Positions 4,770 through 59,830 of a stretch of 64,000 nt of DNA are shown here, one piece after another (position 1 is the first letter of the stretch; the number at the start of each line of letters is the position of its first letter). A program made the translations under genes and the position numbers. Below the pieces are notes generated by a model. That model made no database searches, had not been told where the DNA came from, and saw nothing but the letters and a program-made list of their open reading frames with translations. Origin of the DNA: Pseudeuparius sepicola (lineage: Eukaryota; Arthropoda; Insecta; Coleoptera; Anthribidae). The stretch is taken from NCBI GenBank assembly GCA_963920635.1, contig OY987301.1, positions 13,980,501 to 14,044,500 of the forward strand, read 5' to 3'.

Positions 4770-5169
4770 TAAATATCAAATAAGTCACATTGCAATATAT
4801 ATGTTTGTCAGCATTTTATGAAGGAATCATTAGCTTTATCCACTACAACGTTTTGAAGTCTTCATGTTTTTAAGTTTCCAAAAGAAGATATGCTTTGGGG
4901 AAACGCAAAAAATATCTTGGAAGTAATGATTAAAGGACATTATATTCGAACCCTATATAGAATATATTATGACCTTTACTCAATGATAGAAGGAACATGG
5001 TACTTATGATAAAGATAAAGAGGTAATAGAAGAAATAGTGGAACTGAAGAGTCGGTCGTATCAACAATTACAAGTAATAATTAATTAAAAATATATAAAA
5101 TATTGTTATTATGACAATAGCTTCCCCAAAATTCAACCGATTTAAAAACACACTATCGCTGACTTATAT

Positions 5170-5204
5170 CACACACATATATAGCGAAGATATATAGGTC
5201 TGTG
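5170..5204. mobile_element. 35-bp mini-hairpin insertion, 7-bp TSD (one mismatch)
   Basis: The insert begins CACACACATATATAGC and ends TATATAGGTCTGTG, which are imperfect inverted repeats. The flanks are CTTATAT on the left and CTGATAT on the right. Its ends match the 27-bp insert at 6,522, and its right end matches a solitary 14-nt run at about 54,010. The related repeat at 18,531 runs from AAAAA into ATATCAAATTAAACG without this block. Confidence 0.6.
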
Positions 5205-5487
5205 CTGATATCAAATTAAACGCGCTTTAAAATGATGTAATACAAGGGAGAATTTAAGGTTTTAAAGTTGGGGTTGCTGGTGGTTATGGGATGAATCTTG
5301 CAGTGTAGAAAATACTGGGAATAGGGAATTTTCAAACGAACACTCTGTATAATATATACATATTCCTTTGTACCTACATACCACCTACAATCAAGAATCT
5401 ACAATTTTATTATAATTTAATATTAGTTTTAGTTTTACTAATAATTGATGTCAGCGGCCACTGCCCAGCATTGAAATTTCCTCGATC

Positions 5488-5709
5488 ATTCTGCTGTCCT
5501 ATTTCGAATTTCGCTATCGTTCGGCAATACTGGCCTAAGTGCGATTCCGATTCACATCGAGTTCGGTAGATAGAAAATACGAGCTTCACATGGGTGCGAC
5601 AGAGACAACGAAACATCCAGACTCGATACCATCCGGCAACACCTCCTATAGAGACTAATGTGCTCCTGGTCGAAACTCAGAAGTTTCGGTGCAAAAACGA
5701 GCCGAGTCC
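5488..5709 (+). repeat. M1/M2 repeat, full copy
   Basis: Close relative of the reference copy, in the subfamily with core CACATCGAGTTCGGTAGA and GGTGCGACAGAGACAACG. M2 runs CTCCTATAGAGACTAATG to GAGTCC. Confidence 0.65.
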
Positions 5710-6131
5710 ACGAGCTGTGATTTTGCTTGGCTGTTTAATTAAAAACGGTTTATGTTATAAATAATATAAAATCTCTTATTAAATCAATTACTTAACAGTA
5801 AATTCCAATATTGCCCACAAATGCCAAAATATATACTTAAAACAAACATGTTTTGTTTTTAAACTTTTTTATATTTTCAACACCTCTTAAATACTCTAGT
5901 TTCTGCACAATAATGTCAAAACTGAATTCCTTGGCACCAAAAACTTAGAAAACGATATATACAGATTCACCCCTTTGCACTCCCTCTCGACCACTCCCCT
6001 TTTTAAAATAATGTCAAAAAAGCGCATAGGTGACAAAGAATGACAGCCTCTTACTATGTTTTTATGTAATCGGGAGGGTCAAAAAGTGTATTGCTGGTTA
6101 TAATAATTTATAAGCTTGTCAGTTCACATGC

Positions 6132-6212
6132 CTTTGAGATGAATACCTTCTAAAGATGTTTATGCAATCCTAATCGAAAACCAGAAGTTTGAAGGAAGAA
6201 CGGCGTAAGTGC
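6132..6212 (+). repeat. M2 module, M2-only subfamily
   Basis: TTGAGATGAATACCTTCTAAAG ... AACCAGAAGTTTGAAGG, ending GGCGTAAGTGCC. With the block at 5,990-7,130 it forms one unit of the same kind as the tandem units at 21.8-26.9 kb. Confidence 0.6.
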
Positions 6213-6521
6213 CAGCCAGCATGATTAAAGACGGGATTTTGTTTTTATTAATCAGTGTCATAGAGTAGGTTTCCCTCCCGGTAGTTCCCATTCCCTATAG
6301 AAACACAAAAAGTAGGCCATCGCCATTTTCCCATAATTTGAAAAAAAAAACTGACAGATGCATCTTTCAATTAGAAAAAAATTTTCGTGGCCTTTCTACT
6401 TTCTACGCTTTTGTAGGAAATACGGGGGAAGGGAATTTTTAAATGAACACAGTATATATATTCTTAGGAACCTACATACCACCTACAATCTACAATTATT
6501 ATATTATATTGTAGGTAATAT

Positions 6522-6548
6522 CACAGACATATATAGCTTAGGTCTGTG
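6522..6548. mobile_element. 27-bp mini-hairpin insertion with perfect 7-bp TSD
   Basis: The insert is CACAGAC, a 13-nt middle, then GTCTGTG. GTAATAT lies directly on both sides (6,515-6,521 and 6,549-6,555). Sister copies of the host repeat at about 22,365 and 23,450 read TTGTAGGTAATATTAATTTT straight through, which is the empty site. No coding potential. Confidence 0.8.
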
Positions 6549-6600
6549 GTAATATTAATTTTAATATGTAATTGATTTCAGCGGCCAGATTTCCTCCATC

Positions 6601-6821
6601 ATTCTGCTGTCCTATTTCGGATTTTGCTATTGTTCGGCAATACTGGCCTAAGTGCGATTCCGATTCACATCCAGTTCGGTAGATAGAAAATACGAGCTTC
6701 ACATGGGTGCGACAGAGACAACGAAACATCCAGACTCGATACCATTCGACAACACCTCCTATAGAGACTAATGTGCTCCTGGTCGAAAATCAGAAGTTTG
6801 GTGCAAAAACGAGGTAAGTCC
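6601..6821 (+). repeat. M1/M2 repeat, full copy
   Basis: M1 is ATTCTGCTGTCCTATTTCGG; M2 is CTCCTATAGAGACTAATG to GAGGTAAGTCC. It is nearly the same as the copies at 22,416, 23,505 and 25,497. Confidence 0.65.
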
Positions 6822-7557
6822 ACAAGCTGGGGTTTTGCTTGTCTGTTTAATTAAAAACTGTTTCTGTTATAAATAATACAAAATCTCTTATTAAATCAAT
6901 TACTTAACAGTAAATTCCACTATTGCCCACAAATCCTAAAATATATCGTCATAGCCTTGTCATAGGTATTTTAATATTTTTTATACTTTCAACATGCGCT
7001 TTTTAAATAGTCTAGATTCTGTAAAATAATGTCAAAATTGAATTCCTGGGAACCAAAAACATAGAAAACGACTTATTAAAATCCACCCCTTTGGATTCCC
7101 TCTCAACCACCCCCTTTTTAGAATAATGTTAAAAAATAAATATTTTTTGGGGGTGAAAAAATGTTTCAAATAAAACTTTCCTGAACCCTGAACCGCCAAA
7201 ATCTGTCACCAGATAAAACTAAAGAATATAGCAAAGTTGTGAAAAAATATACCCTTAGGTTTTTGACTGAAACTCTCAACATATTTTATTTGTACATTCT
7301 TGAAATAATCTATTGTATCTCTATTCTCTATACCTAGAATTATCGCTTACCGTTTTAGAAATATTACATTTCAAATTTTATACTAAAAATAAAAAGGTTG
7401 GAATTTTAATATAATAATAAGAAGATCTCAACATTTTGAAATTTTAATGTTTTTTGTCCAAAACAAATATTTTTATTTTATCATAATTTTTTTATATGCT
7501 AAATCGGTTTAAAATGGTCTTAATTCTAAATTTTGGTGTCTGTTTCTCTGTGTTACT

Positions 7558-7588
7558 CACCGAACTATAGTTTGAATATAGTTCAGTG
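7558..7588. mobile_element. 31-bp mini-hairpin insertion with perfect 8-bp TSD
   Basis: Arms CACCGAACTATA and TATAGTTCAGTG (one mismatch in 12) flank a 7-nt loop. GTGTTACT is repeated exactly on both sides (7,550-7,557 and 7,589-7,596). It differs from most of the set in having 8 rather than 7 bp duplicated. Confidence 0.75.
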
Positions 7589-7645
7589 GTGTTACTACAT
7601 AGTGGAAGTAGTGATTCATTCCATCGGCACTATTGGCAAAATCTA

Positions 7646-8716
7646 GAGAATACTATAAGTCAGCTCACTTCTTTGTTCTCTCGGAGAAAACAACAATTTT
7701 TTGCGACTGGTCGTAAATCAGCCTCGAACCGCTCTCAGCTACATATAGACCGGGAGATATAGTGACAGATTTTTGGACGTGATTTTACTCAGTATGCCTC
7801 GCAAAGGGATTATGTGGCACATATTCTCACAATAATAAGGTATCAACCAGAGAGTCATCCTGGGTTCTTCATATGAAAAACTGAGTTTTCAATTATTCGA
7901 AAAATATGCGTTTTGATATGATTTTAGTCAGGCTGCCATGTGTTTTATAATGAAGTTCAAAATAGAAAATTCCTCGGAAAACCATAGGCCTACCGTTAGC
8001 GTGGGTTCAAAGGGCTATTATTGTCACGTGAACTTGTATTTTATAATTAATTTTTCCACGTTTCTGAACAGGCTGCCAAGGAGAAGTATGCAAGTGCTTG
8101 TTATGAAAATGCTGAAAAAAGGATGGCATACCTTTTACGCTTGTCCAAGTACTGTTTAAATTGAATGTTATTTAATAATTTAAACGATTTATTCGATGTT
8201 AAGTGTACTTGGATATGCGCAAACGGTATGCCATCTTTTCTTCAGCAGTTTCATAACAAGAACTTGCATACTTCTCATTGGCAGCCTGTTTAGAAACGTG
8301 GAAAAATTAATTATTAAAATACAAGATCACGTGGCAATAATAGCCCTTTGGACCCACCCTAACGGTATGCCTATGGTTTTCCGAGGAATTTTCTATTTGA
8401 ACTGTATAAAATCATATCAAAACGCATATTTTTCGAATAATTGAAAACTCAGTTTTTCACATGAAGAACCCAGGATGACTCTCTGATTCATACCTTATTA
8501 TTGTGAGAATATGTGCCACATAATGCCCTTTGCAAGGCATACTGAGTAAAATTACGTCCAAAAATCTGTCACTATCTCCCGGTCTATAAGCTTATTTTCT
8601 TATCAAATCAGATATCGATCGCCGTACTCCGATGACGGCGGGCCGAGGGAGCGGGAGACGGCAGGGGGGAAACGTTTGTTTACACAAGGCCGAGTGCGCC
8701 GACTTATAGTATTCTC
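7646..8716. mobile_element. 1.07-kb foldback MITE flanked by TA
   Basis: The ends are GAGAATACTATAAGTC and its complement, each next to TA. The two halves (about 7,740-8,170 and 8,185-8,590) are long imperfect inverted copies of each other; for example CCTCGGAAAACCATAGGC faces CCTATGGTTTTCCGAGG. The right outer part (8,600-8,700) is GC-rich and has no partner on the left. TA flanks and lack of coding fit a Tc1/mariner-type foldback MITE. Confidence 0.75.
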
Positions 8717-8790
8717 TAGACTTTGCTATTGGCAGAGATTTTATAACAGAAAACCATATTATTTAACGGTGAAATAAAAGCCTAGATTGT

Positions 8791-11206: not shown

Positions 11207-11293
11207 TACGACTTGTGTCGTTTTAGCACAAAACCTTCTGATTCTTTAGCAGGAGTACATAAGTTTCTATAAGAGGTATTGGGCAATCGACAG
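11207..11293 (-). repeat. M2 module, minus strand
   Basis: ACTTGTGTCGTTTTAGC, CCTTCTGATTCTTTAGCAGG and TTTCTATAAGAGG in inverted order. No M1 partner is found within the next 300 bp. Confidence 0.55.
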
Positions 11294-11346
11294 TCTTGAC
11301 AAATTCTCTAGACTTTGGTCTTGATATGCAGGGTGGTTTATATGGG

Positions 11347-11385
11347 CAAAGTTTACAGAATAAAATATTTATTCTGTAAACTTTG
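11347..11385. mobile_element. 39-bp perfect hairpin insertion with perfect 7-bp TSD
   Basis: Two perfect 18-nt arms, CAAAGTTTACAGAATAAA and its complement, flank ATA. ATATGGG is repeated exactly on both sides (11,340-11,346 and 11,386-11,392). The first 13 arm bases match the insert at 18,642, so two insertions share one end sequence at unrelated sites. Confidence 0.82.
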
Positions 11386-11759
11386 ATATGGGTAAGTGGC
11401 TCACTCAAAATATCAAGGCTATTTTTTAATAGAAACAAATCGGTGGCGGGTGCTATCGACTAGACTTTGCTATCGATAGCTTTTCTTCAAAAAAATGAAA
11501 AAATTTTAAACCGTGTAACTTTTTTACTTTTTTACTTTTTTACAATAAACAACACCGAATTCTTCAACATTTCATCTTTTCAGCTTCAGCATTTCATTTT
11601 TTAATATTACACATTTTGTGGAGCTGTCGAGTAGTTGAAAATTTTATTTTTCGAATGTCGGGGTTGGAGCACATTTTGCCAATTTCAACGCAACGGTTGA
11701 TTTTATCATTACAAAAATTAAAAAGTTAATGGAAGGGTAATGGAAGGCAGCGTTGGCTA

Positions 11760-11823: not shown

Positions 11824-11953
11824 TAATAATTCTGTCAAGTAATAATTCATATAATTTATGAAAATTAAATTTAATTGCCTGTACATGTAAGTATTGTTAA
11901 TTCTTAAAACCTCGATCCTAGCGCCAGTGCCCAGTGTCAGAAGACACTGATAC

Positions 11954-11985
11954 CAGTGACTATAGAAACCTTTCTATAGTCACTG
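11954..11985. mobile_element. 32-bp perfect hairpin insertion with perfect 7-bp TSD
   Basis: Arms CAGTGACTATAGAAA and complement (15 nt each) flank CC. CTGATAC is repeated on both sides (11,947-11,953 and 11,986-11,992). The related host stretch at 1,075-1,115 (CCTAGTGTCAGAAGATACTGACTG) has no such block. Confidence 0.82.
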
Positions 11986-12447
11986 CTGATACTGAAATAT
12001 AAACTATGGCGAAATCTTATTTTTATTATACTTCTTTGAAAACACCTTATTTTCATCTGTTTTAGCAATAATGAGAGATGGGGTTTTTCGGGCTAGCGCA
12101 CGGAAACAGCGCATGGAAAAACTTTTCGTGCGCTGAATAAAAATACCGAATATATATGGCTTTAAAATAGAAATATACAGCAAAGTAAACTAAATTTAAG
12201 AAACTCTATATGCTCTCTGATATTTAACATATACCTATTTTGTATTTTAATTCGTAAGTGTTTCAATATTTAGATACATTCATGTAATATTTTTGACGTT
12301 TTATTCACCCTATCTGACAATAACTAATTTACAACAAAGCACCTTTGAAATAATTTGAGAGTAACCATGGAAACGCATCATATACATACCAAACACTATA
12401 TTGTCTGCATTGTTTTTTTTTTGTCAATTAAATTTATTATAATATGC

Positions 12448-16123: not shown

Positions 16124-16638
16124 CAGCCGCATGATTAAAGATGGGATTTAATTTTCATTACTCAGTGTAGGAGTATATTTCCCTCCCGGTAGCTCCTTGT
16201 CCCTGGGAACACAAAGAGTAAGAAGCAAGAAATTAAAATGTGAATGTCAAGAAAATTTTTACATCCAGACTGTGAGATTTACAACAATTTGGCATTGAAT
16301 TATCACGGCTTAAATAAAAGTTTGTTTTTAAAAAGGTGGTTTTATATTTTTTTATTTTGTGCTTTTATTACCTATTTGATTCCTATGTCAGGAGGGTGGT
16401 AAAGAAAGTTATTCCGTCATCTTGGGGCATCCGTCATATTGGATTTAGTAAGACGTATGACGTTACTTATCTTACCATTTTGTACTCGTCAAACCCTTTC
16501 ATTGGGTACCCACATTGATTTTATTCAATGGTACCCATGTCGAGGACGTTGTGAAGGAATAGGTAATCCGCCATCTTGGATTGCATTGTCACCAGAACCA
16601 AATGTGTGTAAAATTTCGGTGCAATTGGCCGTTTTTTT

Positions 16639-18382: not shown

Positions 18383-18641
18383 AGCCAGCGAGAGATGGGA
18401 TTGTGTTTTTATTAGTCAGTTTCAGAGTAGGTTTCCCTCCTGATAGGTCCCATTCCTTGGAAACATAAAGAATATGCCGTCGTAATGTTTAAAATGTTGC
18501 TATTTTGCGAATACATTTCCTAAAATTCAACCGATTTAAAAAATATATCAAATTAAACGCACTTTAAAATGACTATTACAAGAGGGGTGGTCGTATTTAA
18601 AATTTTAAAGTTGGAGTTGCTAGTGGTTAAGGTGGTTAAGG

Positions 18642-18673
18642 AAAGTTTACAGAAATTTTGTTCTGTAAACTTT
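18642..18673. mobile_element. 32-bp hairpin insertion with perfect 8-bp TSD
   Basis: Perfect 13-nt arms (AAAGTTTACAGAA and complement) flank ATTTTG. GGTTAAGG is repeated on both sides (18,634-18,641 and 18,674-18,681). Read against the 39-bp insert at 11,347, it can equally be a CAAAG...CTTTG insert with GTTAAGG duplicated and the first C lost. Confidence 0.8.
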
Positions 18674-18800
18674 GGTTAAGGTATAGCCATCACGTTTCTG
18701 TTTCCTATATTTTAAAAAATTTTTGCAGTGTAAAAAATACTAGGGGTAGGGAATTTTCAAATGAACACAGTATATTATATTCCTGGTACCTACATACAAC

Positions 18801-18822
18801 CAAAGATCATTCATGATCTTTG
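18801..18822. mobile_element. 22-bp perfect hairpin insertion with perfect 7-bp TSD
   Basis: Arms CAAAGATCAT and complement flank TC. ATACAAC is repeated on both sides (18,794-18,800 and 18,823-18,829). Sister repeats at about 5,385 and 6,475 read CCTACATACCACCTACAATC uninterrupted. Confidence 0.82.
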
Positions 18823-18904
18823 ATACAACCTAGAATCTGCAATTAATTATGATTTAATTTTAATAATATTGATTTCAGCTGCCTGCCTAGAAATTTCCTC
18901 GATC

Positions 18905-20442: not shown

Positions 20443-21006
20443 ATCGAACATCTACATCTAATAAGAAAAAGAAGATTTCACTACTTGACCATCAATATCA
20501 ATCATTGTTCAGATTTTTCTGTCGGACCGTTGAGTGGATTTATTTCTTCCAGGTCATTGATTTCTTCCCTCAACGGTCTGACACTATTCTAAAAAGAGCC
20601 TACTACACACACTTCGCATAATTATCTGTCTTCACTTGTTGGCATTTTTTACTAATGCGAGATTGCATCGTGATTGGAAGGAAAATTAAGATATGTTTGT
20701 TATTATTATTGGTCATACCTTTTTGTTATACAGAACTTGTGCTTGATGTGCTATCCAAGTATTTGGGTCTTGTTCATTAGGTTGAAGTTAGGTTAGATAA
20801 TTTGTTTGATTAAAAAGGGAGAACATGTTCAGTCATTCCTTTGAAATAAGAAATTTTTTTCACCGCCCAAAAACGTGAGGATCAGATATAGTAGCAAAAC
20901 AACAATGCTAAAATTGAAGCAATCAGCGTTTTGGGCACTCCCCTAAAAAGTTTGACCTTAATATTAATTTTAGCGCCTTTCCCGTTCCGAAAAAAATATG
21001 TTTAGG

Positions 21007-21043
21007 CATTGAGTAAAGGAATAATTTATTCCTTTACTCAATG
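21007..21043. mobile_element. 37-bp perfect hairpin insertion with perfect 7-bp TSD
   Basis: Perfect 17-nt arms (CATTGAGTAAAGGAATA and complement) flank ATT. GTTTAGG is repeated on both sides (21,000-21,006 and 21,044-21,050). The related host at 1,840-1,870 lacks the block. The last 13 bases, CCTTTACTCAATG, also occur alone at about 4,973, as if they were the end of a longer relative. Confidence 0.82.
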
Positions 21044-21435
21044 GTTTAGGGTTTATTTTCAACATACTTCATGGTGCACTGTTCACTTATAAAAAAAATA
21101 GTGTGAAAAGGCTCATTCCTGGCCTGGACTAATAGGAAAGTTACTTTTGGCGTGTGGTACATTGTCCAGGTTGCAAGTTTGATTAATAGGGTGATTGTTT
21201 ATAACCTTAGTAACTCAAAAGCATACCTACGCTTCTGTGATATTTACCGTGGACTGATAACTTGAAAGTTAGGTACGAAAATACACCAAAAATAAACAGA
21301 AATTACGAAAAAACGGTCTTATTTAACCTAAATTGTTTTCTGCAATTATGTATCTTGTCTATTATTAATGTGTCTGTTATTAGGGTATAAAACTACCAGA
21401 GATATGGCCATCTTATCTTGGTATTTTTATCACTC

Positions 21436-22064: not shown

Positions 22065-22415
22065 TGCCAGCCAGCATGATTAAAGATGGGATTTTGTTTT
22101 TAATAATCAGTGTCAGAGTAGGTTTCCCTCCAGGTAGTTCCCACTCCCTGTAGAAACACAAAAAGTAGGCCGTCGCCATTTTCCCAAAATTTGAAAAAAA
22201 AACTGACGGATGCATCTGTCAAATAGAAAAAAATTTCGTGCCTTTCTACTTTCTACGCTTTTGTAGGAAATACGGGGGAAGGGAATTTTTAAATGAACAC
22301 AGTATATATATTCCTAGGAACCTACATACCACCTACAATATACAATAATTATTATATTATATTGTAGGTAATATTAATTTTAATAATTGATTTCAGCGGC
22401 CAGATTGCCTCGATC

Positions 22416-22640
22416 ATTCTGCTGTCCTATTTCGGATTTTGCTATTGTTCGGCAATACTGGCCTAAGTGCGATTCCGATTCACATCGAGTTCGGTAGAAA
22501 GAAGTGGAAAATACCAGCTTTTCACATGGGTGCGATAGAGACAACGAAACATCCACACTCGATACCATTCGACAACACCTCCTATAGAGACTAATGTGCT
22601 CCTGGTCGAAAATCAGAAGTTTGGTGCAAAAACGAGTTAA
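22416..22640 (+). repeat. M1/M2 repeat in array unit 1
   Basis: M1 ATTCTGCTGTCCTATTTCGG; M2 CTCCTATAGAGACTAATG ending GAGTTAAGTCC. Confidence 0.65.
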
Positions 22641-23149: not shown

Positions 23150-23504
23150 AGCCAGCATGATTTTAAAGGTGGGATTTTGTTTTTATTAATCAGTGTCAGA
23201 GTAGGTTTCCCTCCCGGTAGTTCCCATTCCCTATAGAAACACAAAAAGTAGGCCGTCGCCATTTTCCCAAAATTTGAAAAAAAAAAAACTGACAGATGCA
23301 TCTTTCAATTAGAAAAAATTGTTCGTAGCCTTTCTACTTTCTACGCTTTTGTAGGAAATACGGGGGAAGGGAATTTTTAAATGAACACAGTATATATATT
23401 CTTAGGAACCTACATACCACCTACAATCTACAATTATTATATTATATTGTAGGTAATATTAATTTTAATATGTAATTGATTTCAGCGGCCAGATTTCCTC
23501 GATC

Positions 23505-23730
23505 ATTCTGCTGTCCTATTTCGGATTTTGCTATTGTTCGGCAATACTGGCCTAAGTGCGATTCCGATTCACATCGAGTTCGGTAGAAAGAAGTGGAAAA
23601 TACCAGCTTTCACATGGGTGCGACAGAGACAACGAAACATCCACACTCGATACCATTCGACAACACCTCCTATAGAGACTAATGTGCTCCTGGTCGAAAA
23701 TCAGAAGTTTGGTGCAAGAACGAGTTAAGT
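23505..23730 (+). repeat. M1/M2 repeat in array unit 2
   Basis: Very close to the copy at 22,416. Here the TTGTAGGTAATATTAATTTT stretch upstream is uninterrupted, giving the empty site for the insertion at 6,522. Confidence 0.65.
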
Positions 23731-27659: not shown

Positions 27660-28140
27660 TGCCATTGCCCCCTTTATTTTTTTTTAACTATTACAAAAGA
27701 CCTTTTACCAAAGTCTATCTAGACTTTTCTTTTACTTTTAACTTTGATTATGGAGAGTAATTTTTAAGGTATTTCCACGAAAACCATTTAGTGATTTTTT
27801 TATTTAAAATCTGACATCAGAAACTCCAAAACCCCCATATACCAAATTTCAACAAAAAATATACAGGGACATCCGTCATCCGTTCTACATAAATATGAAG
27901 TCAAGCCATGAAATCCACTCAAATTGTTGGTGTGCAAAGATTCAAGACAAAAATATTCAGGCGATCTCAAAATGCTGTATTTTTCTGAAACTTTGTACGG
28001 GTCTTCAAGAGTTGGTCTAGAATCATTGAAAAAATATTAAAACACAAAAAGTAATTTATTTTTCATTTCTGTACGTACAAAATGCCAACCAACAAATAAA
28101 AAACAATTTAAATTATTAGACCTCCCTCAAGAAAGTTACT
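27660..28140 (-). repeat. Single arm of the foldback family
   Basis: This stretch holds CATATACCAAATTTC, ATATACAGGGACATCC, TCAAGACAAAAATATTCAGG and CAAAATGCCAACCAACAAAT, matching the 16.6-17.7 kb foldback element. Its mirror is at 37,175-37,655. Confidence 0.5.
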
Positions 28141-28212
28141 GTCTAATAAGTCCCGTTTGACTCCCCCATCCCCATTGATAAAGTCCAGCTAAGTACGACC
28201 CTACTAACTATA

Positions 28213-32689: not shown

Positions 32690-32708
32690 TTATTTATTTA
32701 AAATCGAT

Positions 32709-35700: not shown

Positions 35701-37924
35701 GATAACGAGAATTGTGATAGGACAGCAGAATATCTGAAGGTGAATAAGAAGATTGTTTGACTACCATAGTTCAGATTTTTGAGTCAGTCTGACACTTGAT
35801 TTTAAAAATGGTTGTTTTTCTAATAGTAGTAAGTCATAAGCTCTAGGCAGTGTTTGGGTAGTTTACTCGTTCGGCTATGGTCTAGGTAACCTGAAAACGG
35901 CAGGAATTGAACGACCAAAGTTTATTAAAAAAAAAAAACAATTTCAGCTGCAGTTGCAGTACGCAGTACCTAGTTAAAAGTATGTGTCAAAAGTCAAAAC
36001 TGTCTATAGTCTATATGTGCCTCCATGCCCTTAATCCCTGGCCTCAATCACCCTCAATTTAGGGCAGAAACATAATAGGCACCCAAAATGAAAAAAACTA
36101 CGTGTCCGTCCGTGTTGCCCAAAGATGTAGGGGCATTGAGGGCATTGCATTTTTTTTTCACCACCCCTTCCTTCCTCCACAATGTAAAATAGTATTCATA
36201 AGCACCTACTTAAAAATTACATACATACATACAAAATGTTTTGTTCCAATTTCAAATCAAATGTAAAATTTCCTTTTATTTGTAGATACGTGGTTTTAGC
36301 ATCAAACTTCTGATTGGCGATTAGGACCACATACACTTCAGTAGGAGGTATTCGGCAGAGTTCTGTCTCTGTCGCATTCATCGCATTCTCTCGCTTGAGA
36401 ATTAATAGGAACCGATTTATCTTTCTAGGATAGGATTCGACCACAATCGCTAGCGCTTGGACACTTTTGCTGAACGATAGCGAACTTTGGGATAGGACAG
36501 CAGACCTGCCGAAGTAGTATTTTACATAGAACAAAAAATTAAAAGCCGAAATGAGAAATGTAAACGAATTTCAGGAGAAAAAGACAGATGAAAATCCAAA
36601 GCATAAACGATATAAATATTTAAATTTATAAGTGATTAATTATTACAAAAAAGTACAATAAAGTAGTTAATTATTTATTTAAATTACAATCAGTGATATA
36701 ATTAAGTTGACATAAATCACCATATTCGATGCGGGTATACCTATACTAAAATCGAGCAACTCTTACGCCTGGCGTAAACAAGAGCACGTGATTTGAAATA
36801 TTCGCCAGGGCCGCACTGAGGCAGAACCTGTATTTAATTTTAGTTTTACAATTGTTTACATCAAAATATTTCGGAAAAGAATTATTGGCTTAATTAAAAT
36901 GGTTCAAAACATCGATAAAATTATTTGTGGCAGTGTCTAAATAGCTGAAAACAACAAGATAAAACCGTATAACTACACTTTTGCGATAGAGTACGTCCCT
37001 GGTGCCGAGTCGGGTGAAATTTTATAGTCTACCGACCAATCGCGGAACGTCATTGAACACGTGGTTTTATTTACGCCAGGCGTACGGATTGCTCGATTTT
37101 AGTATAGTTAGTAGGGTCGTACTTAGCTGGACTTTATCAATGGGGATGGGGGAGTCAAACGGGACTTATTAGACAGTAACTTTCTTGAGGGAGGTCTAAT
37201 AATTTAAATTGTTTTTTATTTGTTGGTTGGCATTTTGTACGTACAGAAATGAAAAATAAATTACTTTTTGTGTTTTAATATTTTTTCAATGATTCTAGAC
37301 CAACTCTTGAAGACCCGTACAAAGTTTCAGAAAAATACAGCATTTTGAGATCGCCTGAATATTTTTGTCTTGAATCTTTGCACACCAACAATTTGAGTGG
37401 ATTTCATGGCTTGACTTCATATTTATGTAGAACGGATGACGGATGTCCCTGTATATTTTTTGTTGAAATTTGGTATATGGGGGTTTTGGAGTTTCTGATG
37501 TCAGATTTTAAATAAAAAAATCACTAAATGGTTTTCGTGGAAATACCTTAAAAATTACTCTCCATAATCAAAGTTAAAAGTAAAAGAAAAGTCTAGATAG
37601 ACTTTGGTAAAAGGTCTTTTGTAATAGTTAAAAAAAAATAAAGGGGGCAATGGCAAATATTTTATGTTTTATGGTCACTTCATTCTTCCTGATGCCTTGG
37701 CGGCTGCACTTACGACGTTTTAGCTCCAACCTTCTGAATTTCGACCAGGAAAACATAAACTGCTATAGGAGATATTCGATATCTCGACTTGAGATGTCCG
37801 TCAAAATATAAAAATATTATCATCCATTTCTCTCTCGCTCGCGAATCTGAAACAACTTTTTTGTCGTTTCGATTATGCCACTACTGCCGAACAATAACAA
37901 AATTTAGAGTAAGGCCAGCAGAAT
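32709..37924 (-). repeat. M1/M2 repeats of the right palindrome arm
   Basis: These are the mirrors of the left-arm copies: M1 at 32,709-32,744, M2 at 33,780-33,851 and 34,690-34,770, full copies at 35,550-35,727 and 36,288-36,507. The outermost copy (37,707-37,924) runs intact across the palindrome edge: inverted M2, core, then M1 TACTGCCGAACAATAAC ... GCCAGCAGAAT. On the left side the same unit is cut at 27,446. Confidence 0.65.
36746..37102. mobile_element. 357-bp TA-flanked MITE (right palindrome copy)
   Basis: Mirror image of the element at 28,213-28,569 with the same ends and TA flanks. Confidence 0.7.
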
Positions 37925-41488: not shown

Positions 41489-44400
41489 CAATAAGAGAAA
41501 ACAGCCCCGGCACTCAATATCTCCCATAGAAGTTTACCTCTTCCTGATCAAAAATCAGAAGTTTGGAGCAACAAGGACCCAAGTGCCAATCGGTATGGAT
41601 GCTGAGGGAATAAATAGTTGAACATCGGCTTGGAATTGGAAACTGTTATAATCCAGTTATAAAGAAAATTCCAGGTGGAAACCTCCCTGGTAGAATAAAG
41701 ACAGAAGTTAAAAATATATAAAAAATAAAATGTTTCGAATTTCTGAATTTAGTAAAAAGTATTCACTACCATCCTGTAAATAAACTATTAAATAAAATTA
41801 TCACAACGATACCATGACCACAACCTTTTCAAACTTACAAGCCTTGTGCAAACATGTGGCAACGCCGCAGAGGGACGGTTCAACGAATCTATGCAGTCTA
41901 ACAGTCTGCACTTTGGCTTAGTTTATCTTTTCTAATAAATGTTGAACCCTCTTTTTAATTATAATTATTAGATACATTTGTGAATTTTGTTTCAATAATT
42001 AGGTAGGTACCTAAGTAAGTGGGTACGTTTGTTTAACCTACAACAAAAGCAGTAACAAAATATACACAGAAGTATAAGTATTTATAATAGGTACGATTCC
42101 TGGTGTAGATAGGTACATTTTCCACAAACAATATGGTAAATTTGGGCAAATAGAGGGGACTACATTTTGTTGTAAGTCGAATTCTTGTCATAATTTTTCA
42201 CAAAGTGCGCCGTCAGGCAAATGACGATTGTCTTCATTATGGTTAAATTTTCATCAAAATACACAAACAAGCGAACAGATAACTGCTTGTTGTGGTTGTG
42301 ATTGAAATGGCAGTTAGGGTTAATTTCATAATACATTCAACTAAAGTATCCTTTGACTTTAAAATTAGGTAAAGAAATTGATAGTAATATTTTCTCTGTT
42401 AAATATATGCCGGTTGAACCCCCAAAACTCCCCCGTTATCTACGCCCCTGAACCAATTAACCTCGAAACTAGCTAGGGTGCAAAAAATAATTATACCGTA
42501 AAGTATCTTCCAACTCCAACTTGATGGTAAGGTAAGTATCCCCCAATATTCAAGTTTCTAGATTTAACAGTTTCTGAGAAGAAAAAATTCTTTGGTCCTC
42601 TTTAAAATATTATTAAAACCACGTGTAAGAACACTGAACACTTCCTCCAAATATTTACGGACAATTAACAATTATTAGATATAGGAATCTATTTTTGTAA
42701 TTTGTAATTTCACAAATTGAAAGCTAAATAATAAAATTCCCTGTTCTAATTAATTGTTCATTTTATATTTTCATACATAGGTACATAATATGTAAATAAT
42801 ATTTAATAAATAATTCCTAATTCCCAGCAGTCCGATTTGACTGGCGGCACTTACGACGTTTTAGCTACAAACTTCTGATTTTCGATTAGGAAACCATAAA
42901 GTACTATAAGGAGATATTATTCGCTGGTCTCGGATGTGTATTTGAGCTTTGAGCTCTGTCTCTGTACATTTATCAATTTATTATAATATTTACTATTTTC
43001 TGTTTCTCTCACTGCAGAATGTTTGTTTAAACAAAAATCGCTCTTCATAAAAAAGCTTTGTTTGTCAGTTTATTTTTGGCAAAAAAGGTTGGTTATCTAA
43101 GTGATTTTTATATTTATAAAGTTTAAGTTTTGTTGTTTTTTGTTTTCTGTTTTGTTTTTAAACAATCCTGTTGTTTTATAAGCACTAATAAACAGTAAAA
43201 AAACCCATTCATTTTTATTTTATTCTACCATGTTTATATGTATATACATTATCATCTCAGATCTCAACGTCTATTTTTTCGCGTGTTGTTTCTGGTTTTC
43301 TATTTTGTTTTTAGATAATCCTGTTGTTTTATAAGCAGTAGAAATCCCACTTTTTTGTTTTAGCTCCCCGTTACAAGTGACTTCCGAAGTCCCTTTCCCT
43401 GCCGCTGCTGTTTGTTATTGAGACATAAAATATAAAATGCCGAATTATTTTATTTTTAGTGACTTTTGGAACAAACTTATTTTTATTTTACCTATGAACA
43501 TGCCCAACGCCTTCCTAGGCCGTTTCAATGTTCTTTCTTCCTCTCCTGGAACCAGAAAATGCTGCTTTGCACATACGTGGTTTTACTCCAAACTTCTAAA
43601 TTCCGATTAGGAGCACATAAAGTCCCATAGAAGATACCAGACTATCTTCTATCTCTGTCTTTCTCATTCGTGGCAATATTTTATATTTTTCTTGCCCGCC
43701 CAATTGCCTGGCGTACACACCTGCGTATGGCTCTTGCTTCTTCTTTCCTTGCACCGGTTTTGCCGAACAACAGCGAAATTTGGAAAAGGATAGCAGAACG
43801 GCCAATAATAAAAGAAAACGGCCCCGGCACTCAATCTCTTCCATAGAAGTTTATCTCTTCCTGATCAAAAATCAGAAGTTTGGAGCAACAAGGACCCAAG
43901 TGCCAATCGGTATGGATGCCGGAGGAATAAATAGTTGAACATCGGCTTGGAATTGGAAACTGTTATAATCCAGTTATAAAGAAAATTCGAGGTGGAAACC
44001 TCCCTGGTAGAATAAAGACAGAAGTTAAAAATATAATAAAAAATAAAATGTTTCGAATTTCTGAATTTAGGAAAAAGTATTCACTACCATCCTGTAAATA
44101 AACTAATAAATAAAATTATGACAACGATACTATGACCACAACCTTTTCAAACTTACAAGCCTTGTGCAAACATGTGGCAACGCCGCAGAGGGACGGTTCA
44201 ACGAATCTATGCAGTCTAACAGTCTGCACTTTGGCTTAGTTTATCTTTTCTAATAAATGTTGAACCCTCTTTTTAATTATAATTATTAGATACATTTGTG
44301 AATTTTGTTTCAATAATTAGGTAGGTACCTAAGTAAGTGGGTACGTTTGTTTAACCTACAACAAAAGCAGTAACAAAATATACACAGAAGTATAAGTATT

Positions 44401-47400
44401 TATAATAGGTACGATTCCTGGTGTAGATAGGTACATTTTCCACAAACAATATGGTAAATTTGGGCAAATAGAGGGGACTACATTTTGTTGTAAGTCGAAT
44501 TTTTGTCATAATTTTTCACAAAGTGCGCCGTCAGGCAAATGACGATTGTCTTCATTATGGTTAAATTTTCATCAAAATACACAAACAAGCGAACAGATAA
44601 CTGCTTGTTGTGGTTGTGATTGAAATGGCAGTTAGGGTTAATTTCATAATACATTCAACTAAAGTATCCTTTGACTTTAAAATTAGGTAAAGAAATTGAT
44701 AGTAATATTTTCTCTGTTAAATATATGCCGGTTGAACCCCCAAAACTCCCCCGTTATCTACGCCCCTGAACCAATTAACCTCGAAACTAGCTAGGGTGCA
44801 AAAAATAATTATACCGTAAAGTATCTTCCAACTCCAACTTGATGGTAAGGTAAGTATCCCCCAATATTCAAGTTTCTAGATTTAACAGTTTCTGAGAAGA
44901 AAAAATTCTTTGGTCCTCTTTAAAATATTATTAAAACCACGTGTAAGAACACTGAACACTTCCTCCAAATATTTACGGACAATTAACAATTATTAGATAT
45001 AGGAATATATTTTTGTAATTTGTAATTTCACAAATTGAAAGCTAAATAATAAAATTCCCTGTTCTAATTAATTGTTCATTTTATATTTTCATACATAGGT
45101 ACATAATATGTAAATAATATTTAATAAATAATTCCTAATTCCCAGCAGTCCGATTTGACTGGCGGCACTTACGACGTTTTAGCTACAAACTTCTGATTTT
45201 CGATTAGGAAACCATAAAGTACTATAAGGAGATATTATTCGCTGGTCTCGGATGTGTATTTGAGCTTTGAGCTCTGTCTCTGTACATTTATCAATTTATT
45301 ATAATATTTACTATTTTCTGTTTCTCTCACTGCAGAATGTTTGTTTAAACAAAAATCGCTCTTCATAAAAAAGCTTTGTTTGTCAGTTTATTTTTGGCAA
45401 AAAAGGTTGGTTATCTAAGTGATTTTTATATTTATAAAGTTTAAGTTTTGTTGTTTTTTGTTTTCTGTTTTGTTTTTAAACAATCCTGTTGTTTTATAAG
45501 CACTAATAAACAGTAAAAAAACCCATTCATTTTTATTTTATTCTACCATGTTTATATGTATATACATTATCATCTCAGATCTCAACGTCTATTTTTTCGC
45601 GTGTTGTTTCTGGTTTTCTATTTTGTTTTTAGATAATCCTGTTGTTTTATAAGCAGTAGAAATCCCACTTTTTTGTTTTAGCTCCCCGTTACAAGTGACT
45701 TCCGAAGTCCCTTTCCCTGCCGCTGCTGTTTGTTATTGAGACATAAAATATAAAATGCCGAATTATTTTATTTTTAGTGACTTTTGGAACAAACTTATTT
45801 TTATTTTACCTATGAACATGCCCAACGCCTTCCTAGGCCGTTTCAATGTTCTTTCTTCCTCTCCTGGAACCAGAAAATGCTGCTTTGCACATACGTGGTT
45901 TTACTCCAAACTTCTAAATTCCGATTAGGAGCACATAAAGTCCCATAGAAGATACCAGACTATCTTCTATCTCTGTCTTTCTCATTCGTGGCAATATTTT
46001 ATATTTTTCTTGCCCGCCCAATTGCCTGGCGTACACACCTGCGTATGGCTCTTGCTTCTTCTTTCCTTGCACCGGTTTTGCCGAACAACAGCGAAATTTG
46101 GAAAAGGATAGCAGAACGGCCAATAATAAAAGAAAACGGCCCCGGCACTCAATCTCTTCCATAGAAGTTTATCTCTTCCTGATCAAAAATCAGAAGTTTG
46201 GAGCAACAAGGACCCAAGTGCCAATCGGTATGGATGCCGGAGGAATAAATAGTTGAACATCGGCTTGGAATTGGAAACTGTTATAATCCAGTTATAAAGA
46301 AAATTCGAGGTGGAAACCTCCCTGGTAGAATAAAGACAGAAGTTAAAAATATAATAAAAAATAAAATGTTTCGAATTTCTGAATTTAGGAAAAAGTATTC
46401 ACTACCATCCTGTAAATAAACTAATAAATAAAATTATGACAACGATACTATGACCACAACCTTTTCAAACTTACAAGCCTTGTGCAAACATGTGGCAACG
46501 CCGCAGAGGGACGGTTCAACGAATCTATGCAGTCTAACAGTCTGCACTTTGGCTTAGTTTATCTTTTCTAATAAATGTTGAACCCTCTTTTTAATTATAA
46601 TTATTAGATACATTTGTGAATTTTGTTTCAATAATTAGGTAGGTACCTAAGTAAGTGGGTACGTTTGTTTAACCTACAACAAAAGCAGTAACAAAATATA
46701 CACAGAAGTATAAGTATTTATAATAGGTACGATTCCTGGTGTAGATAGGTACATTTTCCACAAACAATATGGTAAATTTGGGCAAATAGAGGGGACTACA
46801 TTTTGTTGTAAGTCGAATTTATTTTTGTCATAATTTTTCACAAAGTGCGCCGTCAGGCAAATGACGATTGTCTTCATTATGGTTAAATTTTCATAAAAAT
46901 ACACAAACAAGCGAACAGATAACTGCTTGTTGTGATTGAAATGGCAGTTAGGGTCAATTTCATAATACATTCAACTAAAGTATCCTTTGGCTTTAAAATT
47001 AGGTAAAGAAATTGATAGTAATATTTTTCTCTGTTAACTATATACGGGTTGAACCCCCAAAACTCCCTCGTTATCTACGCCCCTGAACCAACTAACCTCG
47101 AAACTAGCTAGGGTGCAAAAAATAATTATACCGTACAGTATCTTCCAACTCCAACTTGATGGTAAGGTAAGTATCCCCCAATATTCAAGTTTCTAGATTT
47201 AACAGTTTCTGAGAAGAAAAAATTCTTTGGTCCTCTTTAAAATATTATTAAAACCACGTGTAAGAACACTGAACACTTCCTCCAAATATTTACGGACAAT
47301 TAACAATTATTAGATATAGGAATCTATTTTTGTAATTTGTAATTTCACAAATTGAAAGCTAAATAATAAAATTCCCTGTTCTAATTAATTGTTCATTCAA

Positions 47401-53955: not shown

Positions 53956-54328
53956 AAAGTGACGAAGAAACTGGTACAATAGTATCACAAGGTGCTTTAG
54001 GGAAGCTATATAGGTCTGTGATAGTATGAAAATCTCTGAGGAAAATTTCTTTCTTGTTTCTTGATAGTTGTATTGTGTTTTCCTGGTAAGTGGTAGGTTT
54101 ATATTATAGGTACTCGTTTACTTTACTAACTTACCTATTTTAACATTAAATGTTTATGTTCGAATATCGTATATGGGAGGTCGGACAATATACGTTTAAG
54201 TCGGTTTAATTAAAAAATTATAATTTTCAATGTCTCCGATTTCCGATGCTTGCAAGGATTGCGAAATCTGTGTATTTTTTTTATTGTGATATACCTACCT
54301 ACAGGATAAGGATACAGGATTCAGTAGG

Positions 54329-55060: not shown

Positions 55061-55642
55061 TAAACCAGTAAGCCAGTAAGTTGTAAGTACCTAGGTCTTC
55101 CAAACGTCATGAATGTTTGTTTAGATCTACTCCATCCAATGAATAAAGAACCCCAGGAAGGAGTCAAGGCTCTATCGATATTATAAAATAGGTATGTGCG
55201 GCGAAAATCGCCTTAACTGTGTAGAACACAATATAATATATAGGACATAATAGATAGGTGCCAGTAGGTATGTGGTATTTCGATACTTTTAGCTTAGCTG
55301 TGCGGCTTGTGGCTCTTTCCCGGCCTGCAAAACTGAATGTAAAATTAACGAAAGGTATTATCGATAACAGGCACACCCACGGGCGTAGCCAAGGGGAGGG
55401 TTTCGGGGGTTCAAACCCCCCCCCCCCCCGAAATAAGCAAAATATTACCTAATATTATACCGAAAAAATACGAGGAGTGAAGAGTTAAATTATTATTACG
55501 TTTGAATATATTATGTAGTAATAGTAGCGGCTAGCGCCATCTTTTGACGAGAGGCAGACGCAGTTGCAGCCGAACTATTTTGTATTGTAGGGACACTGCG
55601 TTGTTTCTCGATTATTCGCCACGCCCCTCGGTCCAAATGAGC

Positions 55643-55698
55643 GGAACTTTGTGGAAGTTCGTGGAAGTTTCTGGACGGCTACTGGGCTACTATATAAG
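55643..55698 (+). promoter_or_regulatory. Heat-shock-type promoter in hAT copy 1
   Basis: GGAACTTTGTGGAAGTTCG and TGGAAGTTTCTGG contain GAA/TTC repeats in alternating order, including one perfect nGAAnnTTCn unit (GGAAGTTTCT). Some 15 bp further lies TATATAAG (55,691-55,698). The leader after it is A-rich and purine-rich (GAAGCGAATAAAAGTGAAAA), in the style of insect heat-shock leaders. Binding by HSF is inferred from the motif only. Confidence 0.6.
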
Positions 55699-55886
55699 CG
55701 GCGTCGCGGCGCGTGACCGCGCTTACGGCAGTATTGTTCCATGCGAACTCGAAGCGAATAAAAGTGAAAAGTGGTGAACGAATAGTGAAGAGAATTAAGT
55801 GTACCGTGTAAGTGAGTAATTTTAGTGCACTGTTATTCGATGACCTTGTTAAGGATAGATACGTGAATCATTATTACTGTCGAAAA

Positions 55887-56054
55887 ATGGAGGGGAAAAA
55901 AAGGAAGGGTGATAAACTTAAAGGTATGGACTACTGGAAAAAGTGGTGTAGTCAAGGTCAAGGGGTTTCTAATAAAGAAACAAATTTGGATTTAGCTATC
56001 AAAGCTTCAGCTACCTTGCATGCTGATAAGAAGACTGCCTACCCCGAAATCTAG
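55887..56054 (+). pseudogene. hAT transposase N-terminal remnant, copy 1
   Basis: From an ATG the frame gives a 55-residue lysine-rich peptide (starts MEGKKRKGDKLKG, contains YWKKWC) that ends at a stop. It then continues out of frame into the C-terminal region at 56,023. No zinc finger or DDE residues remain. It is shared without visible change with copy 2, so the internal deletion predates their separation. Confidence 0.6.
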
Positions 56055-56229
56055 TTTGGAATGCCTAGATATGTGCGATAAAAACCTTTATCCTAATATT
56101 TACACATTACTACAAATCTTGGCTACCATTCCTGTATCCACTGCTACCCCAGAAAGGTCTTTGTCGAGCCTAAGGAGACTGAAAAACTATTTACGAAACA
56201 CTACAAGTGAAAACAGACTTAATGGTTAA
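56023..56229 (+). pseudogene. hAT transposase C-terminal dimerisation remnant, copy 1
   Basis: The frame carries the hAT C-terminal signature: ATIPVSTATPERSLSSLRR, then LRNTTSENRLNG. The motif TxxxERxFSxL with LR...L is what the family uses for dimerisation. It meets a stop after NG, where a few bases are lost compared with copy 2 (which continues LALINIHYG). Broken and non-functional. Confidence 0.8.
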
Positions 56230-56513
56230 TGAACATTCACTATGGAACAGAAAGTCATGCAGATGAAGTAGTGGATATATTTAAAAGAAAAAGCCGAAGA
56301 TTTCTTCTTTAATGGTGTTAGATTTAGCGCAGAGGAACGAAATTAATTTATCCATTTCATTTAAAGTTAAGAACTTTATAAATATGTCGTAGTTTTTCGG
56401 ATGAATATATAGATATTAAATTTCATGTAAGTATATTTTTGTTGTTTTATTTACTTCTCAAACTAAACCCCCCCCCCCCCCCCCAAAACTAAATCCTGGC
56501 TACGCCCGTGGCC

Positions 56514-57795: not shown

Positions 57796-57888
57796 ATGGA
57801 CTCGTGGGGGCAGCTGGATATAGGGGCTGCCGCTATAGTGAGAGACGACGGGCTGCACAGTAGCTTCAGGAGATCCAAGAAAACGACG
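57796..57888 (+). CDS. Alternative first coding exon A of the F-box/LRR gene
   Basis: The exon gives 31 codons, starting MDSWGQLDIG and ending RRSKKTT. It is followed by a perfect donor, GTAAGT, at 57,889. An in-frame stop lies two codons before the ATG. It ends in phase 0, which fits exon 2 at 62,411 (TIEKLPDK). The first intron would be 4,522 bp and would contain hAT copy 2. The WGQL motif is shared with exon B at 62,096, which supports both being true starts of one gene. Use of this exon is inferred, not shown. Confidence 0.7.
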
Positions 57889-58304
57889 GTAAGTGCGGCA
57901 GGCACTGCGTCTTTTATTATTTGCGCTTTTCCTTATGGAGGCCACAAATACCTTCAACATTAGAATACTCGGCAATAATTTAATACAGACAATACAGTCA
58001 ATAATCGTATGTAATATCACAAGTGCCGGAAATTGTATCGATAATTTTTTCGAAAGCGTTATTTTGCCTAGAAAGATCACGAGTATAAATTGGTCTTTTA
58101 TTTTCTGATATCTTTGAATCTTTGAAAATAAAAGTCCAATTTGCACGGGCGTAGCCAGGATTTAGTTTTGGGGGGGGGGGGGGTTTAGTTTGAGAAGTAA
58201 ATAAAACAACAAAAATATACTTACATGAAATTTAATATCTATATATTCATCCGAAAAACTACGACATATTTATAAAGTTCTTAACTTTAAATGAAATGAA
58301 TAAA

Positions 58305-58637
58305 TTAATTTCGTTCCTCTGCGCTAAATCTAAAACCATTAAAGAAGAAATCTTCGGCTTTTCTTTTAAATATATCCACTACTTCATCTGCATGAATTTC
58401 TGTTCCATAGTGAATGTTTATTAGAGCCAAACCATTAAGTCTGTTTTCACTTGTAGTGTTTCGTAAATAGTTTTTCAGTCTCCTTAGGCTCGAGAAAGAC
58501 CTTTCTGGGGTAGCAGTGGATACAGGAATGGTAGCCAAGATTTGTAGTAATGTGTAAATGTTAGGATAAAGGTTTTTATCGCACATATCTAGGCATTCCA
58601 AACTAGATTTCGGGGTAGGCAGTCTTCTTATCAGCAT
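58305..58637 (-). pseudogene. hAT transposase C-terminal dimerisation remnant, copy 2
   Basis: An open frame of 110 residues carries ATIPVSTATPERSFSSLRR, NTTSENRLNGLALINIHYG and a tail FKRKAEDFFFNGF. This is the intact-looking hAT dimerisation region, without any catalytic domain. It probably began as part of a frame of 600 or more codons. Lacking its catalytic part, it could at most make a dimerisation-only fragment; no evidence says it is expressed. Confidence 0.82.
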
Positions 58638-58770
58638 GCAAGGTAGCTGAAGCTTTGATAGCTAAATCCAAATTTGTTTCTTTATTAGAAACCCCTTGAC
58701 CTTGACTACACCACTTTTTCCAGTAGTCCATACCTTTAAGTTTATCACCCTTCCTTTTTTTCCCCTCCAT
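58603..58770 (-). pseudogene. hAT transposase N-terminal remnant, copy 2
   Basis: Same 55-residue lysine-rich frame as in copy 1, overlapping the C-terminal frame by some 35 bp in another phase. A frameshift separates it from the dimerisation region. Confidence 0.6.
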
Positions 58771-58958
58771 TTTTCGACAGTAATAATGATTCACGTATCT
58801 ATCCTTAACAAGGTCATCGAATAACAGCGCACTAAAATTACTCACTTACACGGTACACTTAATTCTCTTCACTATTCGTTCACCACTTTTCACTTTTATT
58901 CGCTTCGAGTTCGCATGGAACAATACTGCCGTAAGCGCGGTCACGCGCCGCGGCGCCG

Positions 58959-59016
58959 CTTATATAGCAGCCCAGTAGCCGTCCAGAAACTTCCACGAAC
59001 TTCCACAAAGTTCCGC
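58959..59016 (-). promoter_or_regulatory. Heat-shock-type promoter in hAT copy 2
   Basis: On the minus strand TATATAAG (58,959-58,966) is preceded by the same GAA/TTC blocks as copy 1. On the plus strand they read CAGAAACTTCCACGAACTTCC and AAAGTTCC. The TATA box and the GAA/TTC array are kept, though nearby bases differ between copies. Confidence 0.6.
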
Positions 59017-59519
59017 TCATTTCGACCGAGGGGCGTGGCGAATAATCGAGAAACAACGCAAAGTGTCCCTACAATACAAAATAGTTCGGCTGCAACTGCG
59101 TCTGCCTCTCGTCAAAAGATGGCGCTAGGCGCTACTATTACTACATATATTCAAACGTAATAATAATTTAACTCTTCACTCCTCGTATTTTTTCGGTATA
59201 ATATTAGGTAATATTTTGCTTATTTCGACCCCCGAAACCCCCCCCTTGGCTACGCCCGTGCCAATTTGTACGAGTGGCTTTGCTAATAGGCAAAATAGCG
59301 CTTGAGAATAAAATTATTTAGAAAAATTTCCGGCACGAGTGGTATTTGTCGAGATTATTTCACGAATACGATTTAATAATTTCTGTATTAATTTTTTCTA
59401 TGTTTACATTTCCAAAACGACTCATTTTGAACGAGTTTATTGACAGCTTCGACTGTAGCATTCGAGTAAATCAACATGACGCTTGGATATCCAAAGCAAA
59501 TGCGATTATATACCTACAC

Positions 59520-59548
59520 CACAGCTTACCCTAACATAGTAAGCTGTG
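59520..59548. mobile_element. 29-bp mini-hairpin insertion with perfect 7-bp TSD
   Basis: Arms CACAGCTTAC and complement flank a 9-nt middle. CCTACAC is repeated on both sides (59,513-59,519 and 59,549-59,555). It lies in the first intron used by exon A. Confidence 0.8.
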
Positions 59549-59830
59549 CCTACACCATGTCAGAGTTGGTTTATTTTCTGAATGTGTGTCATAAATTTAA
59601 ACGGAGACCGAGGTCTAATAAGAACAATTTAGCAGTGTAAAAGTTATATAAATTCATTGATACATGCTTAATAATACCGCAACAAAATTTATAAGCTGCA
59701 TAATTTAGAACAGTGTAAGTACGTGTTTGTATCGAACAGATTCGCGGTTGCTAAGCAACGAAGTGGTAATTGCACTAGTGGTATTACCGCGATAATTTGC
59801 ACAAGTGCAATTATCGCTAGCAGAGGCATA

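Follow-up and report, generated by a model that had tools for sequence, protein, structure and literature searches.

Short hairpin inserts in a beetle genome as probable excision scars of P-type transposons with 7-bp target duplications

A 64,000-nucleotide stretch of the genome of the anthribid beetle Pseudeuparius sepicola (C4:13980501-14044500, hereafter the window) was found to contain 13 tiny palindromic inserts of 18-39 bp. These are flanked by exact 7-bp duplications of the target in 11 of 13 cases, by a 7-bp duplication with a mismatch in one and by an 8-bp duplication in one. Several of these hairpins carry the terminal inverted repeats (TIRs) of larger transposons that make 7-bp duplications, one family of which has a P transposase, and they are very probably excision scars. 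The best reading of the hairpins is that they are scars of new P-type families with 7-bp duplications.

Nine of the inserts had been listed in an earlier note made from the sequence alone, and all nine were located at the positions claimed. Four were added, at 11300 (18 bp), 16513 (18 bp), 27709 (20 bp) and 53986 (35 bp, with one arm nearly lost). Among the original nine, the 7-bp duplication at 5170 has one mismatch, that at 7558 is 8 bp long, and exact 7-bp copies were counted at seven sites (6522, 11347, 11954, 18642, 18801, 21007 and 59520, of which 18642 is also readable as 8 bp). The pattern CANNG..CNNTG fits at least one side of every insert listed there, and the first C is missing at 18642, as had been stated. 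The genome comprises 769,049,646 bases in 16 contigs (C1, C2 and C4 are contigs), and further loci fetched from it for comparison are labeled L with a number. A 200-kb comparison sample was taken from C1 and C2, giving 264 kb together with the window. The window was picked for its inserts, so their density in it is not that of the genome.

Larger elements with the hairpin ends

The ends and the duplication length of the hairpins in families B, C and D are common to larger elements (Table 1), and the earlier suggestion that the arms are ends of larger elements thus holds for 5 of the 13 inserts; none could be tied for families A, E, F, G and H or for the insert at 16513. The family-D arm, taken from the scar at 21007, occurs 2,478 times in the genome (reversed control, 0), and three long copies of this family were found, all of them with inverted ends and with duplications of 7 or 8 bp. 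In the 13,913-bp copy, a 203-amino-acid (aa) open reading frame (ORF) matches Pfam PF12017 and a 458-aa ORF matches PF21787, PF21788 (the P-transposase GTP-binding domain) and PF21789. The 458-aa ORF also aligns (E 7.7e-23) with 6p5a, the solved structure of the Drosophila P transposase, and has D, D and E where that enzyme has its catalytic residues D230, D303 and E531 (PMC7776569). Judged by these matches, this copy encodes a P-superfamily transposase (RNase H with a GTP-binding insertion) that has kept the three catalytic acids. A P-type transposase inside a full-length element with the same ends, as had been anticipated, was therefore recovered for family D, in one copy.

Three shorter pairs of family-D ends on C1 (7998700-8002253, 10240172-10242533 and 12106857-12111794) were rejected as complete elements, one side of each being an old scar inside a larger copy. 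Family-D elements at L034, L035 and L036 likewise hold an old scar of their own family, CATTGAGTAAAGGAATATTACTCAATG, between two copies of GTATCAC, which means that the transposon has carried this excision scar with it as it multiplied. Directly after the right duplication of one family-D element, a 30-bp family-D hairpin begins (G000:C1:8009768-8009805), which suggests two insertions at one target. One exact 7-bp duplication, at L052, encloses a double family-D hairpin that is 64 bp long.

The copies read for families B and C were short and non-autonomous only, and in both families inverted ends were found together with a 7-bp duplication. In family C, whose arm is that of the scars at 11347 and 18642, 715 genomic copies of the arm were counted (reversed control, 0); elements of 221-224 bp end with this arm, and of four fetched, three have an exact 7-bp duplication and one a mismatched duplication. 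For family B, the 21-nt end occurs 1,127 times (reversed control, 0), and the ends of the window element 7637-8725 are those of the scars at 11300 and 27709. A 250-bp family-B copy (L058), flanked by GTATTAC, matches the outer part of this element; the three fetched copies of the 250-bp form represent one insertion within a repeated host. Nested in the window element is a nearly palindromic 845-bp repeat. A Galileo-like long palindrome was considered for this element and rejected, given that the nested repeat is separate and occurs alone in L015. On C1, family-B ends repeatedly occur in pairs with a spacing of about 1.1 kb, as if, judged by this spacing, the element had moved with the 845-bp repeat inside it.

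Scar series, duplications and target sites

Facing arms no more than 24 bases apart were found at 739 places in the genome for family D and at 418 for family C, with reversed controls of 0. Among 100 listed family-D arm matches (of the 2,478) there were 18 such pairs, of which 17 were fetched: 15 lie in exact 7-bp duplications at different sites, one in a mismatched duplication and one in none. Two of three fetched family-C hairpins have an exact 7-bp duplication and the third a mismatch. Junctions were read in 50 listed places of each family. The listed family-D hairpins are 28-50 bp long and keep at most 21 nt of an end; 31 junctions show an overlap of 1-2 nt, 11 contain filler and 8 have neither. 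In family C, 29 distinct junctions were counted, the longer kept side peaking at 21-23 nt with a maximum of 24. A length of 37 bp was seen in 14 of the 50 family-D hairpins, 13 of them identical in sequence, in either orientation; this product equals a 20-nt stub of one end and a 19-nt stub of the opposite end with AT shared. Since some of the listed scars were probably multiplied as part of amplified repeats, 739 and 418 are numbers of places and not of excision events.

In order to be counted in the strict scan, an insert had to be 18-44 bp long with CA..TG ends, 8-nt arms with no more than one mismatch and an exact duplication. For 7-bp duplications this gave 8 inserts in the window, against a mean of 0.01 and a maximum of 1 in 200 dinucleotide shuffles, so the comparison with shuffled sequence proposed earlier shows a strong excess. 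Among other lengths in the window, 8 bp gave one and 4, 5, 6 and 9-12 bp gave none. When no palindrome was demanded, 14 inserts with 7-bp duplications were found in the window, or 9 after low-complexity duplications were removed, compared with a mean of 1.2 and a maximum of 3 in 100 equally filtered shuffles. The same low-complexity filter was applied to the 200-kb sample scans, to the count of end dinucleotides and to the count of long and tiny elements given below. Across the 264 kb, with the AT array near 32650 removed, the 16 possible end dinucleotides gave 11 inserts for CA, 2 for AA, 1 for CG and 0 for the remaining 13. In the 200-kb sample, the strict scan gave three inserts with 7-bp and two with 4-bp duplications, and none with 5, 6 or 8-11 bp. 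Perfect 8-nt CA..TG palindromes of 18-44 bp number 48 in the 264 kb; 6 of the 48 have an exact 7-bp duplication, and none has a duplication of any other length from 4 to 12 bp.

The 41 exact 7-bp duplications of scars and elements (mismatched and 8-bp duplications left out) share a symmetric pattern, (G/C)TANTA(G/C), with T at position 2 in 88% and A at position 6 in 71%. Of 7 positions, they match GTANTAC at 4.41 on average, compared with 2.65 for random 7-mers and a top value of 3.24 among 2,000 random sets. For 14 of the 41, agreement is limited to 3 positions, with the free one counted. Scar-free paralogous copies, used as a stand-in for sister strains, exist for the scars at 6522 (family A) and 59520 (family F). 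For 6522, one window copy carries a single GTAATAT and no insert (Table 1), and two more copies of the repeat that bears this scar match less well; a second scar-free site lies at 22227-22503. The scar at 59520 has a scar-free paralog at L022:9154-9454 (95%), which is less clean because it has changes at the target itself. Of the 22 paralog queries, the other 20 returned no clean empty site over the full length, although 3 had partial matches at 79-88%.

The family-A arm of 5170 is also present at 6522, 53986, L004:2672 and L019:1562. The window itself is repeat-rich with a GC content of 35%, and no ORF of 150 aa starting with ATG, GTG or TTG was found in it. An AT array is surrounded by a large inverted repeat that extends over 27553-37762 or more, with its centre near 32657 and with many exact matches between its arms of about 5 kb. 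This repeat, which may be genuine or may have been created by the assembly, is the reason why the scar at 27709 appears again at 37587. The units of a tandem repeat at 40919-47397 measure about 2.3 kb and are 97-99% identical, and 62393-63586 looks, by eye, like exons of an F-box/leucine-rich-repeat gene.

Table 1. Inserts, elements and scar-free copies, with window positions unless a contig (C) or locus (L) is named
Feature	Family	Coordinates	Insert or element	Target duplication	Remarks
Scar	A	5163..5211	5170-5204, 35 bp	CTTATAT/CTGATAT	One mismatch
Scar	A	6515..6555	6522-6548, 27 bp	GTAATAT	
Scar	A	53979..54027	53986-54020, 35 bp	ATAGTAT	CACA, filler, 16 nt of right end
Scar	B	11293..11324	11300-11317, 18 bp	GTCTTGA	Left end trimmed to about 4 nt
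Scar	B	27702..27735	27709-27728, 20 bp	CTTTTAC	
Mirror copy of scar 27709	B	37580..37613	37587		Other arm of large inverted repeat; not independent
Scar	C	11340..11392	11347-11385, 39 bp	ATATGGG	22 + 18 nt of ends kept
Scar	C	18635..18681	18642-18674, 33 bp	GTTAAGG	First C lost
Scar	D	21000..21050	21007-21043, 37 bp	GTTTAGG	Commonest listed family-D product
Scar	E	11947..11992	11954-11985, 32 bp	CTGATAC	Second scar in L021 near 4013
Scar	F	59513..59555	59520-59548, 29 bp	CCTACAC	
Scar	G	7550..7596	7558-7588, 31 bp	GTGTTACT (8 bp)	Exception in duplication length
Scar	H	18794..18829	18801-18822, 22 bp	ATACAAC	Second scar at L024:9065
Scar	None found	16506..16537	16513-16530, 18 bp, CATTGATTTTATTCAATG	GTACCCA	
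Non-autonomous element	B	7630..8732	7637-8725, 1,089 bp	CTATTGG	33-bp inverted ends CAAARTCTAGAGAATA
Nearly palindromic repeat		7744..8588	845 bp		Nested in family-B element; further copies L015:610-1466 and L015:8705-9545
Long element	D	C1:12106857-12119432	12,576 bp	ATTGTAC	Exact 7 bp
Long element	D	C1:10228621-10242533	13,913 bp	CTCTACC	Exact 7 bp
Long element	D	C1:7998700-8009767	11,068 bp	GTTAAAAT (8 bp)	
Scar-free paralog of 6522 site	A	23310..23592 (+)		GTAATAT (single)	97.9% identity, no gap across joined site
Second scar-free paralog of 6522 site	A	22227-22503			

Origin of the hairpins

In the route that we propose, insertion would duplicate 7 bp of the target, and the transposase would later cut the two strands at different points, one at the border of the element and its partner some 20-23 nt inside (about 20 nt in family D, going by the kept ends). 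Each flank would then hold a 3' single-stranded stub of the element end, and the two stubs would be closed by end joining, often via 1-2 shared bases and sometimes with trimming or copied filler, so that the left and right stubs come to lie side by side between the two copies of the duplication. Families A, E, F, G and H presumably arose in the same way, given the form of their inserts and, for A, E and H, the repeated scars. A wider proposal has about an even chance of being right: that a whole group of 7-bp P-type transposons cuts the non-transferred strand at a family-specific position 20-23 nt inside, that end joining in the host germline has preserved these cuts as TIR-to-TIR hairpins at more than 1,000 places, and that the rules of cutting and repair may be read from one assembly.

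Several observations weigh against an origin as scars of 7-bp P-type elements. The direct link to a transposase is confined to family D and to one of its three long copies, in which the transposase frame is split into the 203- and 458-aa ORFs; the other two copies, read at the right end and over roughly the leftmost 3.8 and 5.1 kb, have no ORF longer than 100 aa there. No larger element was seen for families A, E, F, G and H, whose arms were searched in the window and the 200-kb sample only (scars of A, E and H recur), and the insert at 16513 has no tie to one either; an apparent 945-bp family-H element in L027 was discarded, its inverted repeat extending beyond the supposed ends. Duplications of 8 bp flank both the 11,068-bp family-D copy and the scar at 7558, and the family-D hairpin at L053 has no duplication. 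Without the palindrome demand, and with self-complementary duplications of long elements removed, 7 bp is not a clear peak in the 200-kb sample (5 bp, 30; 6 bp, 18; 7 bp, 10; 8 bp, 1; 9 bp, 2). With respect to the junctions, two of the 50 listed family-D scars (47 and 50 bp) belong to another subfamily and have arms longer than 21 nt by eye, and one family-C junction makes up 9 of 50, probably because it is carried by an amplified repeat. The right ends of family-D copies diverge after nt 18, so the kept lengths of 19-21 nt (and the 20/19 split) depend on the donor copy, and overlaps of 1-2 bases, given here as raw counts only, are frequent by chance in AT-rich ends. Finally, 13 identical 37-bp hairpins among 50 would also be expected of a mobile 37-bp unit.

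That last point is the strength of the view that the hairpin is itself mobile, a palindrome of minimal size (about 37 bp) that a P-type transposase moves in trans, particularly as the fetched hairpins stand in their own 7-bp duplications. We consider this unlikely: junctions of the listed scars within one family span 28-50 bp with trimming and filler, longer elements with identical ends exist, the 37-bp form is the repair product expected from 20- and 19-nt stubs sharing AT, and Drosophila P transposase needs internal sites, according to a title in the reference list of PMC7776569. Nor is it any more probable that the hairpins are extreme internal deletions left by interrupted gap repair, with copying from the sister, instead of direct joining. 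Filler resembling a copy of an end in some scars (L048, L004:2672) is in keeping with such repair, but it predicts stretches of end of any length, and the kept ends stop at 21 nt in family D and 24 nt in family C although the elements continue, within a search limited to 24 middle bases or fewer.

An origin from hAT elements, as footprints or as pairs of their ends, accounts for the CA..TG ends and for the single 8-bp case at 7558, and some ORFs in the window resemble hAT remains by eye. It is nevertheless very improbable, since the duplications are 7 bp and not 8 (exactly so in 15 of 17 family-D hairpins and 11 of 13 window inserts), a P transposase lies inside family D, and hAT excision leaves little or nothing of the element. 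It was rejected on the numbers of CA..TG elements in the 264 kb, filtered as above for low-complexity and self-complementary duplications: one long and 11 tiny for 7-bp duplications versus six long and one tiny for 8 bp, the long ones being classed by their ends and duplication length. Such a division is expected if stubs are left by the 7-bp group but seldom by the 8-bp group. Chance, or a mutational hairpin process independent of transposons, can draw on the abundance of palindromes in AT-rich DNA, as in the 48 counted above, and is hardly credible: it was rejected on the shuffle and dinucleotide counts, the duplications found with those 48 palindromes, six in number, are all of 7 bp, the arms recur hundreds of times with reversed controls of 0, and for families B, C and D it is refuted by the end matches to larger elements. 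Of the three origins that the earlier note had offered, P-like scars from several families are therefore supported, hAT-like scars are disfavored by the prevalence of 7-bp duplications and the mostly long 8-bp CA..TG elements, and the diversity of junctions within families speaks against a minimal palindromic element. That note had also named two outcomes that would tell against it, no excess over shuffled sequence and arms that never match larger elements; an excess was present and arms do match.

In the same window, 55429-56510 and 58144-59227 are inverted copies (97.5%) of one repeat, for which more than 30 copies at 97-99% were listed genome-wide. We take the ORFs of this repeat to resemble the C-terminal part of hAT transposases.

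Relation to known P-type transposons

Experiments in Drosophila have supplied most of what has been studied of P-element excision, a classic model for the repair of double-strand breaks. In the present genome, natural products inherited through the germline occur at hundreds of places in each of two families, the fetched ones mostly in their own 7-bp duplications. If they are scars, they form a readable record of past jumps, one that would let cut position, trimming, microhomology and filler synthesis be measured without experiment. The stubs would also expose the ends of transposon families with few full copies, and tiny hairpins, which repeat finders likely miss, could be used to look for P-type activity in the genomes of other organisms. 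No genome-wide survey of P-type excision scars was found in the literature available as open PMC articles.

Other P-type elements are present in this genome, where PF21788 gave at least 155 matches (150 of 976 candidates scored), compared with 0 in 14 control genomes. Five further P-type loci were fetched; both ends were found for L029, L030, L032 and L033, and the ends of the element at L031 were not found. These four resemble family D in their PF21788 matches and inverted ends, and they differ in end sequence, for which reason they were rejected as donors of the window scars, and in their duplications of 8, 7, 8 and 9 bp, respectively. The L030 element (L030:144-5576) has a 718-aa transposase ORF, 32-bp ends CCCAGAAAAGGACG and a 7-bp duplication; it is probably young, because the same ORF length occurs at no fewer than five places. 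The element at L033:351-5041 combines a PF21788 ORF and 34-bp ends with its 9-bp duplication, a length unusual for the P superfamily, and a 320-aa frame was listed at more than 15 places.

Among known systems, the zebrafish Pdre2/THAP9 element is similar in belonging to the P superfamily, in ends that start with CA and in having internally deleted derivatives, and it differs in an 8-bp duplication and 13-bp ends of other sequence (available text of PMC10983969). Drosophila P shares with family D the transposase domains and the catalytic triad. Its staggered cut lies 17 nt inside the end and is repaired partly by end joining, as described in the available part of PMC7776569, whereas the cut here would lie 20-23 nt inside. 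Further differences from Drosophila P are the duplication (8 bp in P, mostly 7 bp here), the end sequences and the element length (2.9 kb in the same source, 11-14 kb in family D). Galileo, a P-superfamily element of Drosophila, has very long, foldback-like inverted ends according to published abstracts, unlike the matching ends of about 17-33 bp found here, and no series of excision scars was found for it in the open literature searched. Its duplications are mostly 7 bp with a few of 8 bp, and its target preference is GTANTAC (accessible text of PMC4168063); the 7-bp duplications described here are like those of Galileo, and their pattern, (G/C)TANTA(G/C), is close to its preferred target.

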